DNA of 64,000 bases. Source: Obelidium mucronatum (Eukaryota > Chytridiomycota > Chytridiomycetes > Chytridiales > Chytriomycetaceae). The DNA lies in assembly GCA_025765595.1 (NCBI GenBank), contig JAIVFH010000057.1, positions 124,001 to 188,000 on the forward strand, written 5' to 3'. The notes beneath the pieces are model-generated. The model was not told where the DNA came from. It saw nothing but the letters and a program-made list of their open reading frames with translations, and did not search any database. A program made the position numbers and the translations under genes. Positions 55,020 through 64,000 of this stretch are shown piece after piece (position 1 is the stretch's first letter; the number at the start of each line of letters is the position of its first letter).

Positions 55020-56258
55020 TTATGAAATAGACTGCTCACCCCTTGATGGGTTTTCGATGGTGGCTGACATTGCAACGACAGACTGGGGTCGAGTGAGTTG
55101 CGTGCGCGGAAGAGCCCCGGCTGACTTGCCAACTGCCGCCGATGGTGTCGCTGAATTAGCACTGGACACTTTGCCAGATTCACTTTCTCTTTTCTTGATC
55201 ATAACGGCCTGAGTGCGTAAAGCTCGAAATTCTTCCATTCTGTCTTTGAGGGGAAACTCAATCAAATACACAGACTTGTTCGCCCCCACAGTTAACTCTA
55301 TAGTCTCTTCAGCCTGTTTCTTTGCTGCAACAGTTGTCTTTTCAATCACTTTAATGTTTGCCTGCGACAAAACATGGGTTCCGCTGTAACTCTCGGCAAG
55401 AATAATCAACATATCGAGTTCTGGCATAACCATCAAAACAGCTGATTTCCATAAAGAAGTAGGTCTGTTGGGCCGGATTCCGGTGTGGAACATGAATGTG
55501 AGAACTTGGCCGTCGTCTCTGTCGATTCGCGAGACGCTTGATCCTGCTCCCTTGCTTGATGTGTGTGTCAATGATTGCCTACTTTCAATTTCTCCACGAA
55601 GGGAGGGTACAAAGAGAATGAAGGGGGATACAATGCAAATCACCCAAATGGCGACGGAAATTGTGATTCTGTGCAGGGTGAATATGCCGCTAGTTTGGGC
55701 TGTGATTCCAAAAGATATTCCCTGTATTTTATGGTTGATCTTTTGCTTGATTTATAAAAAATCCGACTTACCAGAGCCAACAGAACCGCGGCGCAGCTAA
55801 CATAAATAGTCGCACCGACTTGCTTCGACTCATCAAACTTACTGGCAGCTTTGCGTGTCAATTGCCCAATGTAAACGCACAGAATCATGATCAAGGCATT
55901 GAAGCCAAATAGCAATCCCATAAGCGACGTGGCTTGTCGTTCATAACCTGGAGCTGTTCTGCACGTCCATACTTGGTGCTCTGTATCTGTAAATTCAGAG
56001 AGCTGTGGAGTGATTTGGCCTCCTTGTACATATATCAGCGCTAGGACTCCATCGAATAATGCGATAAAGTTTGATGCGGCGATGAGAAAGTCATCCTTTA
56101 TGAATCTAGAGCGAGCAATTCGTGGATATCCAAAGATGAGAAAGATTCGAAACGCTTTCATGAATATCATACTTTTTTTTTTTTTTTTTGGTTGGATTTT
56201 AGTTTTTCTCTTTTTGATAGGTTTTGTGTCACCTGAAAACCATCCCAAAAGTACGGAA
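55020..56258 (-). pseudogene. PstS-GPCR copy 2, 3' part (TM3-TM7 and tail), separated by transposon
   Basis: Exons 56171-55772 and 55721-55020 correspond exactly in length and phase to exon 3 (400 bp) and closely to exon 4 of the receptor at 8127-10870. Sequence matches run through MKAFRIFLIFGYPRIARSRF, SLMGLLFGFNALIMILCVYI and ELTVGANKSVYLIEFPLKDR. The end of the preceding exon survives as a few bases next to the transposon end at 56258, with a possible donor GTACTT. Taken with 63044-64000 it is one gene interrupted by the 6.8-kb element, so it cannot make a normal receptor from this allele unless the element is removed. Apart from the insertion no frame damage is seen, suggesting a recent event. 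Confidence 0.8.
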
Positions 56259-56283
56259 GCTGATTTGTTCACAACCGGACGGG
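56259..56283 (+). repeat. Left terminal inverted repeat
   Basis: Begins GCTGATTTGTTCACAACCGG and continues ACGGG; identical over 25 bp to the reverse complement of 63019-63043. Confidence 0.95.
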
Positions 56284-56357
56284 GAAAAAAATTAGGGTTG
56301 AAACAAAAAATTTCGAGCAACAAACAAACAAACAAACAAACAAAGAAACAAACAGAC

Positions 56358-58366
56358 ATGGCACGTGCCTCTTATTGCACCGAAACAGGGTTGGCGCTAA
56401 GTGTTTGCATCCACTGCGTTGATGTAGACGCACTGTCGGCGCCATGGACAGGGCTTTTCTGTGCATTTCATGGAGGCGAGTTGGCGGGGTCCTGTTGCCA
56501 GTGTCCTCCCTGGCCAACTGCAGTGCCAAGAACATCCAGCTTCTCAGCAACTGACATCTACAACTCCCCCTTCTACTGCTCTTTCACAGGGAAGCGTGTG
56601 GTGGACTGCAACCACTGCCACAGGCATGTTGGTCTTGGTGTCAGGCATGACGACGCAGCGTTTTTCTGTTCGACCACGGCGCAACTTCTACATGAATGCA
56701 ATCACTGCAGGGTATCAGTAATGGCAGGCTTCGAGTGCGCTGATGGCGCCAACTCAGACGACCTGGATTGCGAAGATGTTAGCGACGTCGAAACATGTAA
56801 TCAGAACAATGGCTCCCAAGCGAACACTGCAGTCTCAGCGGAATCGGAATCCAATATGTTTGCGGTGGTTGTAGACCTCCTTGATGAGGGGCTGAAGAAT
56901 GCGGAAGTCGTGAAAGAGTTGATGTCTCGATTTGCTGTGACAAGAAGTGTGAGCTGGCTAGAAAAGTTCAAGAGGAAGCATGGACTGTCAAAGAAGCGAC
57001 CGGAATTAACACTATTGGAGCAGTCTGATGATTGGATTCAGGACGTAAAGGAGTGCGTATACAAGGGGTACAAGGCCGCAGAGCTGCAGTACCACCTCAA
57101 AATCAAGTGGGGAGTGACCATTGGCCGCACACGGTTATGGAAAATACTAAAAGTAAGTGAATTCGTCAAGTGAATTCGTCTTGATTCCTCACCTAGAGTA
57201 ACATTTTGCTTCTGTTGTTTCTTTTTAGACGCACAGAATTTGTCTTACGGATTCGTGGATACCCACCGACGTTATTGATGGACTGGTTGCTACTGAATCA
57301 GCCAACAAACCAGGAATTGGATACCGGGGAATGACCGATATTATCAGGCTGCGATACAATGTTAAGGTTGCTCGCCAAAGAATTCATGCCAGTCTGAAGC
57401 AAGCCAACCCCCAACTTTCAGCAAGCCGGCTTGGAAACGTCATGTTCCGACGGGTTTATGGATCCCGAGGTGTAAACGCTGTGTGGCACTTTGACGGCTA
57501 CGACAAGCTCTCTCGCTTTGGCTTCGGTATCCACTGTTGTACAGATGGACTCTCCAGAAAGTACATGTGGTGGTACATCGGATCAACAAACCGCCTCTCT
57601 GTGCGTGTGGCTGGTCATTATGTAAAAGCTGTCGAACGAGCCGGCTGGAGACCTGATATTACCCGAACCGATTTTGGCTCCGAGAATGTGGTTGTAGCCA
57701 CTATTCAGGGTTACTACAGTGACTTACTTGGCTTGACACATGACGGACACATTTATGGGACCTCAAAACGCAACACTCGCATTGAAGGAGGCTGGAGAAT
57801 CCTTTCGCGTGACAACTTGAAGTACTGGAAGACACTGTTTGAGATGATGGAAATACATCATGCGTATCAGTTCAACACACTGGACTTCTACCACGTCAAA
57901 GTAGCTCAGTTTGTATTTGGGGATTTCATCAAGGAAGAATTGAATGATTGGTGCATTCGATGGAATTCTCACCTTCTTCGGTAATGGTTTTTATTGTTGT
58001 TGTTGTTGTTGCATTGTGTAATTAATTGAGGATTGAAACAGGAAGACAAAACAATCAAGAGCTCCGAGCGGGAGACCGTGTCTTATGTACGACCACCCAG
58101 AGGCGTTCGGTTACAGAAACGTAGGACACACCCCTCCAGCAAATCTACGCCAAGTAGCCGAACAAGCAGCTTGCGACAACATGCCCTTTGAAGGCTACGA
58201 CATGTTTGACGAAACTGATACATTTGACTTGAACCCATTTCGTCTAAGGTTTGCTGATGCGGCTATGTCAGCTGGTTTGTTTCCAGTAACAAAAGCGAAC
58301 ATGTGTGTGCTATTTCAGACACTGACTCAAGATGATGTATTGCGTCAGCAGCTGGGATTTGATTGA
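56358..58366 (+). CDS. Transposase with integrase-core (DDE) domain and N-terminal Cys-rich modules
   Basis: Three exons (56358-57152, 57229-57980, 58042-58366) encode 623 residues without frame breaks. Residues ~5-120 hold two Cys modules (YCTETGLALSVCIHC... and YCSFTGKRVVDCNHC...) of the form C-x2-TG-x5-C-x-H-C with further C-x(n)-C pairs, a probable zinc-binding part. Residues ~165-265 form a helix-turn-helix region (DEGLKNAEVVKELMSRF). The catalytic core has an Asp in WHFDGYDKLSRFGF, a second Asp in DITRTDFGSENVVV and a Glu in SKRNTRIEGGWR, matching the D,D,E spacing of the integrase-core family found in fungal and animal genomes. It should cut and join the element ends. The C-terminal exon (about 108 residues) is unrecognised. 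The gene starts 75 bp inside the left repeat. Confidence 0.8.
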
Positions 58367-58557
58367 TCGTGTTCATGTGTTCATTACTATTTAATTCTGT
58401 GTGCGTCAAAGAAGAATATATGAAAGTTTGACTTCTTTTAATTGTGAATGAGTTTCAAACACTACAAACACAAAAAAACACACACAAAGAGCCAAAGAGC
58501 CAAACAAAAATACAGACAAAGAAGCAATACAAAATTAAAGCACAAAGTTTGAACCAA

Positions 58558-61500
58558 TCAACAGTAAGTATTCCCTGGTGTTGCGTTCTCAGCCGCAGAA
58601 GCTAATACATTCAGCAACATCTCTATGTCTCCCGACTCCACCACATCCTCCGCTACTTCCACCGATTTCCCCGCTTCCTCCAACCCCACCTCCGAATACT
58701 CCACCAGCTTCTTTGTCTTCTTCTTCTTCTTAATTTCCACATCATGGGCAACCACAACAATAATGCCTTCCCTCTTTTTCTTAGACTTTTTCTTCTCCTT
58801 TTCACGGGCCTCCTCATCCGACCCAACAGCCATTCCATTTTTCTTTCTCTTCTTTTCCTTGTTCCTCAACATTGTTCGAATTTCCTCAAAATCTTCCAAA
58901 TCTGGATCATTTTCAACATTTCCATCCAGAGCAGCTGTGGAAGTTGTAGAAGTAGTAGCTTTGGTTTCTTTTGGTATACTCCACCAACTTTTATCGGAAG
59001 CATCCACAAAGTACCAGGCGGATTGAGTGGAGCTCCAGCCAAGTGTCCAGCCATCTGGGCATTCTGGCTGAACATACCAGTCGTTTATGTCATTGCACCA
59101 CTCTACATTCCACCCAATGGGACAATCTGGCCGGACTTCCTTTGAAACTTCAAAACCAGGTGCAGGAACAACTGCCGCCAGTGGAAGGCCAGTTTCAGAC
59201 GTGAAAATTCCGCGCACTGTCCAACCAGGAGGTGCTGTCAACAACATTCTTGCTGTTCTTCGAGTGGCACGTCTGATACTTTCGGGGGTTGAAACGGCAG
59301 CAGAAGAACTTATAGCAGCGGATGCCTTTGATGTGGGAAGTTTCTTTGGAGACTTTGATTTGGGTGACTTTGATGGATTGTTTGATGATTTCGATGGATT
59401 GTTTGAGGGGATACCTAAAAAGACAAAGTCAAAATCAAATGTACAAGTTGAAAAATAAAAGAAAAGAAAATCAATCACCTTCTCCATATGTGTTCCGTCT
59501 TACAAACACAGCCCGAACAAAGTCCAAAGCAACCAACTTGTGACCAGAAGCTTTGGCTGCATTTTCGGCTTCCCGCTGACGAAGCTCATTTAAGTGCATT
59601 CGCACTTCTGGGACAATAACATCGGAAATCCAGCTAATTTTGTTTAAGTCTGATGCAAGACTTCCAGCCTCTGCATTGGAAGGAGGAATAACAAACAGAG
59701 CGGATAATTCCTTCTCAAACAGATCCATTTGAGCCTCCGTCAACATCAATTGGACTCCTTCCGCTAATGTGGTATCACCTTGGTGTGTCTTTCTGGTTCC
59801 CAAAAGGCGCAACTTCTTCAAGTTTCCGGTCAGTTTTGCTTCTCTTAATTCACTTGGCCGTTTTCCATCCAAAATTTCCTGGACCAATGGAACCACTTGC
59901 TTTAACTGCTGCAGAACAATTTCATCAAGAACTGGATTTGTGTCATTGTATCCTTTCAAGTACCGGTGGAAGTAAGGGTGAATTGGACAAGTTAAAAAAT
60001 CGGCGTCAAACGCGAGATGAAAAGACGACTTTGCGACTCTGGGAAAGGGGGGGCCGTCCAGTGGCAGCAACAATTTCGAACGGAAAAGGCTCGTTTGCGT
60101 AATGATTCACAATGAACCCCGGTTCTGCAAAAGAATGTATCATTTAAAAAAGGGCATGTGTAGCGTTCTTTAAACTAAAATAATTAATACCGTAGCAGCC
60201 ATCTCGACACACAAGAGCGTACGCGTTTTTACATAAACCAACACCTTCCCAAGGGTCATCAAGAATGTTTTCAAACAGGTGAGGATCCTCTTTTGGGGGT
60301 TTGGCAGAATCTTATATAAAATTAAAAAAAAACTATTACCCAAACAAAAAAAACTGTTACACAAACCAACAATGGGTGCAGGTGTAATGACAGCCCGGTC
60401 AATGGGAGATAAAACAATGGGCGCCTCCCCAACAGGCAAAACAATGGAAGGATTTGATGGAATGGAAGTCTTTGGTGGAACAGAAGGATTTGGTGGAACA
60501 ATGGGTGCAGCAACATGGAGTGGAATACGTTGAAATACTGTAGTTTCGACTGTCATTGTTGATTTGGGCCGTTCGAGTCTGGCATATGGGCCTTTTGGGC
60601 ACTTTTTACCACATATGCGATGTGTTTTAACAAAAGCCCTGTATCCTTGTTCGCCCGAGTTTCCGTAACCATAGAATCTTTGGAAATCATGGTTGAACTT
60701 TCCCCAAAAACAAATCTATATATAGCGTCATCTCAATATATGAGCCGTTGATCAGTAAAAGCTTCCATACCTGGCAATCAAGAATGTATCGGGGGCCACT
60801 GGTCGTCATCAGGAGCTCTACGTCAAGAATCAACGCTTTTCCTTCTAAAACAGCATACGATTTGTGTATAAATGCTTCCGCCTGGCAGAAAAGTGTTTAA
60901 TCACTCAGTCCCTTACTCAAAACTGAAAAAAGGTTACCTCTTCTATTACAGAATGTGCGAACTCTGGATAATCATCTTGAAGCATATCGTTCACTTCTCC
61001 AACATTGGTGATGACCTTCTCCAACGGCCCGACAACCTGCTCCTCAAACACCCACACCTTGGAAAGTTCCTCCATATTCTTCATTACACTGGAAAGGCAT
61101 CCCGACAGTGTCATAAGAATCATACGAGGCGCAATGAAGTGACTTGACTTGTCGTTCTCAATGTTCCAAGCATCGCACACAGCGCAAACGATTTCCCGAA
61201 TATAGAGTTCCGATCGAAGAAGGGCTGCCCCATCAAGTTGAACTCCATTTGCAGCTTCACTCTTTGGTTTCTGTTTCAAAACAGTTTTGATTAGTAATAA
61301 AGCTTTTAATAATAAATTAAAAAAATTCGTATCCCAACTCAAAGGCCTTGCTAACACTCCGTTTGGAGTTTTAGCGTTGGTTAAGTCATTTTATCCCGTT
61401 TGGGAAAAAAAGACATCCAATACAAATTATAAGAGATAAGAAGGAATTTTAAGTACCTTCAAAACCCAAGTTTTGCCTTCAAAAAGACAGTGTGACACTA

Positions 61501-62958
61501 GAACATTCATCCATACTTCCTTGGTAGAGCCAGACTTGACTGGTTCAGCAAGCTGGAGTGCTGAAATAATGCTTTCGTCAAAGCTCACATGGATGGCTGT
61601 TCCAGATCCAGCTCCCTCCTGGAACATAATGGGAGGCGGTCGGGCGGTTGCGCCAATTTCCATCAGCTGCTTGATTTCGACTTTGTTTTTCTTAACAGGA
61701 TGCTCGCCACCTTCAGCCCGATGCTTCTTTGATGGAGGCTCGACAGCATCGAAAAACACCTCAGTCGTATCTACATAAAAATGCTATTAACGTAACAGCA
61801 AAGAAAGAGGGGGGAAATTAAAAACTTGCCACAATCTATCGAAATGACAGGTGATGGCGCTTTACAGCCCGGTGCTTCAGCTGCAGGTGCTTGAGTGCCA
61901 GATGTTACAGAGTCACCAAATCCAAAATCATCTTCATCCGCAAAGAAGTCTCGAACATTGTAGGGGGCTGTTCCGTTTCTTTGGAGATACTGCAGTGGGA
62001 AGTCGGCTTCAGAAGTAAGCAAGTCCTCTTCCCGCTCCTTGGTCAATAGCGGAAGGATCACTCGGGGCCGCACTCGAGGAAGGGGGGCAGAGGCAGACTC
62101 CAATGCTGTTGCTGTACGTGGGGGGGCTGAAGGAGGAGGAGAGGATGCCGGGCTGCTTTGAACTGAATGGGGGATAAGCCATGTTTCATCTTTGAGGCAC
62201 AGGTGCAAAATCCGACTTTTTTGTGAAATAGATTTTGTTGCTATCATGAACCACGATTTGACTTTCTTAGTTACGTTCAGACGTGATTTATCATGTATTA
62301 GGTCAAATTCATCAGGACATCTGCAAAGCAAATGTACGCTTAGTTTCATGCTCATATGCCCAGACGCTCAAAAATACCTTCCACGAATTCCAGTTTGAGT
62401 AAGTACTGCGTTAATCACATCTTCACCACTCTGACCGTACGTTGCTTCCACATCAACCGCGCCAAACCGTGACGTTTCAACAGAGGCCACCAATGATACT
62501 TCCGGTTGGTACTTTACTTTCCCCAACAACACTTTGAATGTAACCGTCTTGGCATCCTCCGCTTCTAAAGTTCCACCCTTCACCCTTCTTTTCTGTTCTT
62601 GGTTGGCTTTGTTAGCACGCAGTTTTGCTTGTATGGTCAGGGGATCTTCCATCTTTTCGTTGTTAAAGTGGCGGACACGCTCGTCTGCAAACCGCCGCTG
62701 TTGCTCAAGGAGTTCGGCAGCATTCTGCTCATGCGCTGACTTCTGCTGAACTTTCGGTTTCGAACTCTTTGGTGGGGACTTATCGTCGATACGACGAAGT
62801 TTGCATCCTTTGCAAGGACATTCGCTGCACGGATTTCCAGTCTCACCGCAGTAGAGCATTTTCGCTGGATGGTCTGCTATTCCTAATCCGCAGTGGTCGC
62901 ACTTTGCGCGCACCTTCCCGGTGAGTGGACAGTGCAATGACGGCGGGACGTTTGACAT
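58558..62958 (-). CDS. Transposon-borne protein with Cys module, divergent alpha-kinase-like domain and WW-like tail
   Basis: Nine exons: 62958-62378, 62320-61830, 61771-61457, 61270-60937, 60881-60771, 60715-60367, 60310-60191, 60124-59479 and 59414-58558, about 1267 residues. Residues ~9-45 are a Cys module (HCPLTGKVRAKCDHC...) like those of the transposase. An alpha-kinase-like domain spans exons 3-6: a lysine strand (GKTWVLKKPK), helix ELYIREIVCAVCDAWNIE, FAHSVIEE then ALILDVELLMTTSGPRYILD, and the end GYGNSGEQGYRAFVKTHRIC-x3-C, which matches the G-N-x-G-x2-G-x3-F-x3-H-x-C-x3-C zinc-site ending of alpha-kinases. The tail has a WW-like WTLGWSSTQSAWYFV part and a basic/acidic end. Intron 2 has a GC donor (GCAAGT). 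One shift near 60054 (CGG in a C-run). The role in transposition is unknown. Confidence 0.65.
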
Positions 62959-63018
62959 GTTTTTGTTTTTGTTTGTTTGTTTTGATTCAATTTTTTCTTC
63001 GTGCGTCTTTATTTTTAT

Positions 63019-63043
63019 CCCGTCCGGTTGTGAACAAATCAGC
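63019..63043 (-). repeat. Right terminal inverted repeat
   Basis: Perfect reverse complement of 56259-56283. Similarity ends at both borders, where receptor coding sequence resumes on the outer side. Confidence 0.95.
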
Positions 63044-64000
63044 CACCGCAAAAAGCGATCGCAGGTATAATAATTTTCGTATAACAAACACTTATAGTCT
63101 CCGTAGCAGCTTCCGCGATAATGGCGAATATCCCCAACAGACAGCCAGCCAAGATATTAATACAGCAAAGTGGGGACATTGCTTTGATCGCTGGCTGGCC
63201 TCGATTCAAGAATACCATCACAATCAAAGCCACTAACAATACCGTTCCAGTTCCAAAAAGCGCCAACTGAGCTTTTGTGATCGCACCAGGTATAAAAAAG
63301 GGTGATCTTTCAGAACATGTTCGTAACTGGATATTCTCGTATCCAAATTCACAGAGACATTCCACATCCGACTCTTGAAAGGCATACAAGTTTTTGCAGT
63401 ATCCACGAACGCATGGGTTTTTGTAAGTCAGATCAATATCAGGATCGCAAACAGATTTGCCGTATAGCTGTTTACCACGGACTTCAATATTGGCAAGGGA
63501 AATTAGCGCGTGATTTCCAATCGATGTATTGAAAATTGGAATGAAGCCGTTTGCTGTCGAATGCTCTGGATGGGAAATCAGGAACCATAACAAGCGAAGT
63601 GTCCACAAGGACACAGTATCATCCGTAGATATATTGCTTGGATTAATAACAATATTTGAAATGATAGTCCATGGATATGCTCCAACTGCTGAAGTATCGA
63701 TCACTGATAAAGCACTGGTTGCTTCATCCAAGTTGTAGACAGCAGATACATTTATATTTGCAATTGCATGAAGTCCTGAGTAAGAAGACCAAGAGATATA
63801 TTCGCCGTTAATGTGCTGGATTAAAGCCGTTGTCTGAGCGCTTAGGGAGTTTAACTCGAGATCCTTTGCTTCAAGTTGATTCAAATATGTGAACGTGTAT
63901 GCCACAGATCCAACGATAATAGAAGCTGATGCAGTTGTGGCGGCAGTAATGGCGTTTTTCAAGGAGAGCTTAAACCCCTTCACTAAGTACGGTGATTTTT
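63044..64000 (-). pseudogene. PstS-GPCR copy 2, 5' part (ectodomain end to TM3), separated by transposon; runs off window
   Basis: Continuous frame from the window edge to 63044. It begins at the C-terminal part of the PstS-like domain (LSLKNAITAATTASASIIVG), passes the Cys cluster (CVRGYCKNLYAFQESDVECL), TM1 (GTVLLVALIVMVFLNRGQ) and TM2, and stops within TM3 (IIIPAIAF) at the transposon end. It aligns residue for residue with copy 1, and provides the reference frame that exposes two insertions in copy 1. The start lies beyond 64000. Confidence 0.8.

Follow-up and report, generated by a model that had tools for sequence, protein, structure and literature searches.

This report concerns a stretch of 64,000 nucleotides (hereafter the window) from the chytrid Obelidium mucronatum (contig JAIVFH010000057.1, labelled C57), in which an IS3EU-like DNA transposon of 6,799 bp encloses two convergent genes, one coding for a transposase and the other for a protein with an alpha-kinase domain. 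That a transposon is present with the kinase gene inside it is practically certain, and the kinase is very probably selected as part of the element. The reading favored here, to which we give a probability of about 0.6, is that of a low-copy cut-and-paste transposon of the IS3EU kind in which the alpha-kinase-domain gene is a constituent and not a passenger, because both genes lie inside the repeats and target-site duplications, both appear to be under purifying selection, and the convergent pair recurs in deep transposase lineages. For a mobile element, to retain a kinase under selection would be an unusual means, open to testing, of controlling its own mobility or the host.

A preliminary description of this DNA had proposed a transposon coding for a DDE (Asp-Asp-Glu) transposase and an alpha-kinase-like protein, and profile matches above the Pfam cut-offs bear this out: the transposase matches PF24764 (E 1.1e-26; 94.2 bits, cut-off 26), and residues 448-649 of the kinase match the alpha-kinase family PF02816 (E 6.5e-11; 43.1 bits, cut-off 21.3).

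Boundaries of the Element

Six loci of this family were found in the genome and are designated by contig: C57 (the window), C262, C131, C2, C50, and C18. The features that delimit the window copy are the following.

56252..63050, unstranded, whole element, IS3EU-like DNA transposon, 6,799 bp, with ends and 5-bp duplications common to C262 and C131
56247..56251, unstranded, left target-site duplication, AAAAG
63051..63055, unstranded, right target-site duplication, AAAAG
56252..56283, plus strand, left terminal inverted repeat (TACGG...), 32 bp, 3 mismatches relative to the right repeat
63019..63050, minus strand, right terminal inverted repeat (TGCGG... on the minus strand)

The perfect 25-bp inverted repeats noticed at first are present (56259-56283 and 63019-63043) and far longer than expected by chance, but they form only the core of a longer repeat, the true ends of which lie 7 bp further out (left TACGGAAGCTGATTT..., right TGCGGTGGCTGATTT...), giving 32 bp with 3 mismatches. 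Comparison of the family copies revealed common outer ends, TACGGAAG on the left and TGCGGTGG on the right, and it is because of these shared ends that the element is delimited at 56252-63050 with a 32-bp repeat. Direct duplications of 5 bp flank all three copies that have both ends (AAAAG in C57, TCCTT in C262, and TTATA in C131). The preliminary description had suggested that the repeats might double as promoters, and the inferred ATG codons of the two genes do stand only 106 and 92 bp from the element ends; about 190 bp separate the transposase gene from the kinase gene. A lone repeat-like end with 3 mismatches, at C101:25521-25541, is perhaps a relic or belongs to another family.

Copies and Selection

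Both genes are present in C57 and C262. C131 (2,542 bp) has both ends, between which an internal deletion has spared kinase exon 1 and a part of exon 2; C2 and C50 are left ends with the transposase, broken off inside the 3' end of the kinase gene, with an additional 4.85-kb insertion in C50; and C18 is a relic of kinase sequence. No undamaged one-gene form is seen among these six loci; copies carrying a single gene, which the preliminary description had named as a refutation of its proposal, are represented only by damaged ones. An NCBI protein from O. mucronatum, P0005 (1,210 amino acids), is a homologue of the window kinase (72% identical) encoded by C262, to which its pieces align at 99-100% where no intron intervenes. 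A search with P0005 detected relatives of the kinase gene only in the six-locus family, except for open frames at C2:595k and C172 and two weak matches to the tail.

Selection was estimated by the method of Nei-Gojobori, comparing C57 with C262. The ratio of nonsynonymous to synonymous divergence (dN/dS) was 0.121 for the transposase (623 codons; dS 0.78) and 0.207 for the kinase gene minus its near-identical end (1,073 codons; dS 0.95). The kinase domain exons gave 0.096 (291 codons), at a dS of 1.36 that is near saturation, and the last kinase exon gave 0.359 (250 codons). Single transposon insertions usually decay neutrally; if this holds here, such low ratios imply selection on both genes through the history of the element, and the comparison points to purifying selection on both between diverged copies.

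The interiors of the copies fall into two groups, C57/C2/C50 and C262/C131. C57 and C262 are nevertheless almost identical at their ends, over about 490 bp on the right (62560-63050) and about 140 bp on the left (56252-56391), with 96-100% identity per 70-column bin. At the left end, identity to the interior sister is 94 and 87% for C57-C2 and 90 and 82% for C262-C131; at the right end, which C2 and C50 lack, C262-C131 is the only comparable pair of sisters and shows 87-97%. This pattern looks like an interior swapped between elements by recombination or gap repair, with retention of the ends.

Recurrence of the Pair in the Genome

A genome scan yielded 20 matches to PF02816 at 14 loci and, with E up to 0.1, 29 matches to PF24764 at 21 loci. 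Five of the 14 kinase loci (C96, C71, C81, C15, and C240) have a PF24764 match at 10 kb or less, whereas the stretches within that distance of any of the 21 PF24764 loci make up at most ~0.9% of the genome. The PF02816 scan was exon-wise and missed the exon-split kinases of C57 and C262; with these two, the loci bearing both genes number seven, and the genes are convergent at every one. C71 is a complete separate element of 3,348 bp with 25-bp perfect repeats, a 6-bp duplication (GTTATC), and both genes, again convergent, albeit with stops in the reading frames. Besides the five alpha-kinase loci with a PF24764 transposase, another three of the 14 are near-copies of such sequence: near contig ends, C165 and C441 repeat sequence of C96 and C15 at 99% identity, and C126 repeats the kinase half of C71 at 94%. 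By eye, C49/C35 and C13/C38 look like cellular genes combining VWA and alpha-kinase domains, and C17/C630 like a cellular gene.

The transposase tree was built from 12 short core rows and rooted on C101 by choice, and only its starred lineages were used. Pair-bearing rows occur in three of these: one with C57 and Rhizoclosmatium proteins, one with C71/C96, and one with C240/C15, which also holds C22, where no kinase was seen. The branch of C255 is very long, too long to place. On this tree, the pair is found in deeply separate transposase lineages. The proposal that the kinase is part of the element's cycle is upheld, as far as sequence can tell, by the dN/dS of both genes and by the occurrence of the pair at seven loci in three lineages.

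Among the kinase-bearing loci, C81, C15:52-63k, and C441 form with C21 a group 97-99% mutually identical, the ends of which were not reached (at least 8.4 kb for C81 and at least 10.8 kb for C15) and which has probably been active recently; C21 shows the transposase side and no kinase match. The contig pairs C13/C38, C17/C630, and C35/C49 are about 95% identical over 1.9-3.9 kb and perhaps represent two haplotypes, so copy counts may include alleles.

The Transposase and the Kinase

The exon structures of both genes were predicted from sequence.

56358..57152, plus strand, transposase exon 1, with two Cys/His fingers (by eye) and a weak HTH_33 match (E 1.2e-4, below the Pfam cut-off)
57229..57980, plus strand, transposase exon 2, with the PF24764 rva_4 integrase core; D89, D148, and E186 of the exon are the likely DDE residues
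58042..58366, plus strand, transposase exon 3, including the stop
62378..62958, minus strand, kinase exon 1, with an N-terminal Cys/His finger resembling the transposase fingers
61830..62320, minus strand, kinase exon 2, followed by a GC-AG intron
61457..61770, minus strand, kinase exon 3, where the alpha-kinase domain begins
60938..61270, minus strand, kinase exon 4
60771..60881, minus strand, kinase exon 5, with the catalytic-site Asp motifs DVE and LDCQI
60367..60715, minus strand, kinase exon 6, where the alpha-kinase domain ends (glycine and His/Cys motifs), then proline-rich
60191..60310, minus strand, kinase exon 7
59479..60124, minus strand, kinase exon 8, with a frame change at a C-run at ~60047-60054; its relatives at C2 and C172 are ~30% identical; 3' boundary read by eye
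58558..59414, minus strand, kinase last exon, WW-like (E 0.4, below the Pfam cut-off), with a Lys-rich tail and the stop at 58558; preceding intron read by eye

The transposase has 623 amino acids, is open throughout, and is assembled from three inferred exons separated by GT-AG introns. D89, D148, and E186 of its second exon are invariant in all four aligned rows (the window protein, two Rhizoclosmatium proteins, and P0004) and are the likely catalytic DDE residues; the winged-helix match of the protein is sub-threshold. An AlphaFold model of the core, built from the same number of rows, gave no confident fold (mean predicted local distance difference test score, pLDDT, 44). A protein search with the transposase, among the 8,000 candidates sharing most words with it, returned four PF24764 proteins, and a scan of viral contigs with P0001 found no relative.

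The kinase gene comprises nine inferred exons, with one GC-AG intron and a last intron read by eye. The preliminary description had taken both genes of the convergent pair to be intact, which stands for orientation and for the transposase; in the kinase gene of the window, by contrast, the frame changes in the C-run near 60047-60054, behind the kinase domain. P0005 matches PF02816 with 40.3 bits and was the sole match of a protein search with the kinase, again among the 8,000 candidates sharing most words; a PDB sequence search with the window kinase domain gave no match up to E 1. In an alignment of six alpha-kinase rows the invariant residues are two Asp, one His, an Ile, two Gly, and a Phe. 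We take the D-x-Q motif and the second Asp of alpha-kinases to be catalytic-site residues and the His/Cys residues to be zinc ligands. The window kinase retains the Asp pair and the His/Cys residues, and kinase activity is likely but not certain. The D-x-Q motif of the other four rows, also present in myosin heavy chain kinase A (aligned from the PDB), reads D-x-E in C57 and C262, and the window lineage spaces its His and Cys residues as H-x2-C-x3-C vs. the usual H-x-C-x3-C.

Transposase and kinase apparently have a Cys/His finger in common, as indicated by a single, moderate witness. A profile made of five hand-picked transposase fingers (from the window protein, P0002, and P0003) scores the N-terminus of the window kinase at 14.0 bits, a score reached by none of 20,000 composition shuffles and by 23 of 20,000 shuffles with Cys and His fixed. 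Such a related finger suggests a common destination for the two proteins, either the same DNA or the same partner.

The Kinase as a Probable Working Part

If the kinase is a constituent of the transposon, each gene would be transcribed inward from its own element end, and the related N-terminal finger would bring the kinase to the same place as the transposase. There the kinase might phosphorylate either the transposase or some host factor present at the ends, a modification that could license or limit transposition. That the kinase acts on the transposition complex itself is, in our estimate, somewhat short of an even chance.

Several observations weigh against the kinase as a constituent acting in this way. 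The synonymous divergence of the kinase domain is near saturation, as noted above, and dN/dS reveals selection, not the target of the kinase. PF24764 falls below its 26-bit cut-off at three of the seven pair loci (24.0 bits at C15, 22.2 at C81, and 17.9, E 0.055, at C240), although the C240 region is identical at 31 of 42 positions to C22, which passes the cut-off with 26.2 bits. Four PF24764 groups (C101/C182/C124, C313/C45/C15:376k, C255/C1, and C22/C367) have no nearby alpha-kinase match in a scan that also missed the C57 and C262 kinases, and the kinase may therefore not be a general need of PF24764 transposases. The pair-bearing rows of the tree do not form one clade (3 changes, with 124 of 500 shuffles as low). 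As for the finger, its hidden Markov model derives from hand-picked segments; P0005, which agrees with the window kinase over its first 70 residues, scores 9.3 as a whole protein, below 3 shuffles; and no finger was seen by eye in the C71 kinase. Finally, the D-x-E motif means that activity may differ in C57 and C262, and the window kinase gene carries the frame change, which could be an assembly error, while the C262 copy reads through.

The alternative that survives best, a serious minority possibility, is that the kinase phosphorylates chromatin or repair proteins, thereby opposing silencing by the host or adjusting the cell cycle, instead of acting on the transposase. PF24764 lineages with no kinase match nearby suggest that the chemistry of transposition needs no kinase, with the reservation that the scan missed known kinases. 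In related transposons described in PMC12730594, TET/JBP genes are located between transposase and alpha-kinase and are read as anti-silencing, presumably by counteracting methylation; the kinase would play a comparable part. On the other hand, the finger apparently common to kinase and transposase points to the element ends.

A second alternative concerns the classification. The element could represent a superfamily separate from IS3EU, which is unlikely: duplications of 5 and not 6 bp in all three copies, a right end of CCGCA and not CCRTA, and long branches to the other PF24764 lineages speak for it, while the left end TACGG, the repeats of more than 30 bp, and the gene layout are all IS3EU-like and the relative C71 in the same genome has 6-bp duplications.

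Transposons can carry cargo, and the kinase might benefit the host or be merely carried along, as C2, C50, and C21, with transposase sequence and no full kinase, could be taken to indicate. We consider this quite improbable, since the transposase-only copies of the family are damaged, C2 and C50 ending inside the 3' end of the kinase gene, and since purifying selection between copies and recurrence in deep lineages misfit a recent or idle cargo.

Chance neighborhood, in which unrelated repeats happened to enclose an old kinase gene, has a negligible probability and was rejected: the genome does have other alpha-kinase genes that look cellular by eye, but the second full copy, C262, carries the same pair with its own duplications, and seven convergent pairs are known.

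Host Gene and Intron Hairpins

The element lies, as initially proposed, within another gene. A class C G protein-coupled receptor (GPCR) gene on the minus strand (55640-56246 and 63056-63998) is interrupted inside its 7tm_3 domain. Of the 7tm_3 profile, one half matches positions 12-84 with 22.8 bits, short of the 33.5-bit cut-off, and the other matches 88-225 with 54.8 bits. When the flanks are joined in silico, the upstream GPCR frame continues about 5 codons beyond the junction to a possible intron start, recognized by eye.

Intron 3 of the kinase gene contains a conserved stretch of ~76 nucleotides (61340-61415, minus strand) with two hairpins whose loops are AAAC. It folds better than shuffled sequences (z -4.95 in the window and -2.45 in C262), and among seven aligned copies 8 of 23 pairs changed on both sides, as many as in none of 500 shuffles, the structure being taken from the same alignment. 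Rfam gave no family above the gathering score for this stretch. Tandem hairpin pairs 96-99 bp apart occur at C172, C2:595k, C124, and C38, with a single copy at C101; a pattern search at up to 3 mismatches gave 25 hits, of which the majority are likely due to chance (control 7). Beside two-hairpin repeats, C172:26901-28900 and C2:595700-596158 hold open frames of 541 codons that share ~30% identity with the C-terminal part of the kinase gene; the C172 frame has no Pfam match.

Relation to Known Elements

The preliminary description regarded the pairing of a transposase with an alpha-kinase as undescribed, which does not hold. TET+ IS3EU families of rusts and Tuber indicum, as presented in PMC12730594 (December 2025), all carry TET/JBP between a transposase gene and an alpha-kinase gene of opposite orientation, and those of rusts have TAYGG..CCRTA ends, repeats of more than 30 bp, and 6-bp duplications. 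This was the only report combining alpha-kinase and IS3EU found in a search of the open-licence literature, and its main text does not mention Obelidium or Rhizoclosmatium.

PMC4469406 describes the alpha-kinase family as strongly expanded in rusts and as lacking in Microbotryomycetes, and in PMC5295586 alpha-kinase figures among the domains enriched in wheat rusts. We advance only as a doubtful extension that the alpha-kinase is the ancestral second gene of a broad group of fungal transposons, a dedicated kinase led to the element ends by a transposase-like finger and controlling transposition by phosphorylation, and that the rust expansion consists largely of transposon genes. If these genes do belong to transposons, the expansion would perhaps be explained and host kinase counts in fungi would need correcting.

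Compared with the TET+ IS3EU transposons as described in PMC12730594, the window element shares the opposite orientations of transposase and alpha-kinase, repeats above 30 bp (32 bp), and a left end, TACGG, that fits TAYGG. It differs in its chytrid host, in leaving no room for a TET/JBP gene in the ~190 bp between its genes, in its 5-bp duplications (three of three copies), and in its right end, CCGCA, one base away from CCRTA. Because of these duplications and this right end, the element is best labelled IS3EU-like and is not filed as a member, the tie of its transposase being membership of PF24764. The C71 element likewise has convergent PF24764 and PF02816 matches inside perfect 25-bp repeats; unlike the window element, it has a 6-bp GTTATC duplication, a repeat beginning TACAGC..., the usual kinase motifs DLQG and LTDPQI, no finger seen by eye, and stops in its frames.

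The window kinase resembles myosin heavy chain kinase A, TRPM7, and eEF2K in motif order, in its two catalytic-site Asp residues, and in its glycine and His/Cys motifs, whereas it departs from the solved alpha-kinases in having D-x-E for D-x-Q and H-x2-C for H-x-C, and in placing the domain inside a protein of ~1,200 amino acids with an N-terminal finger. The pairing of transposase and alpha-kinase being already known, what is new is a chytrid case with 5-bp duplications and without TET; another full copy, diverged from that of the window, and purifying selection on the two genes; convergent pairs at seven loci in three deep lineages; the compact C71 element, which has repeats of its own and a 6-bp duplication; and a finger apparently common to transposase and kinase.

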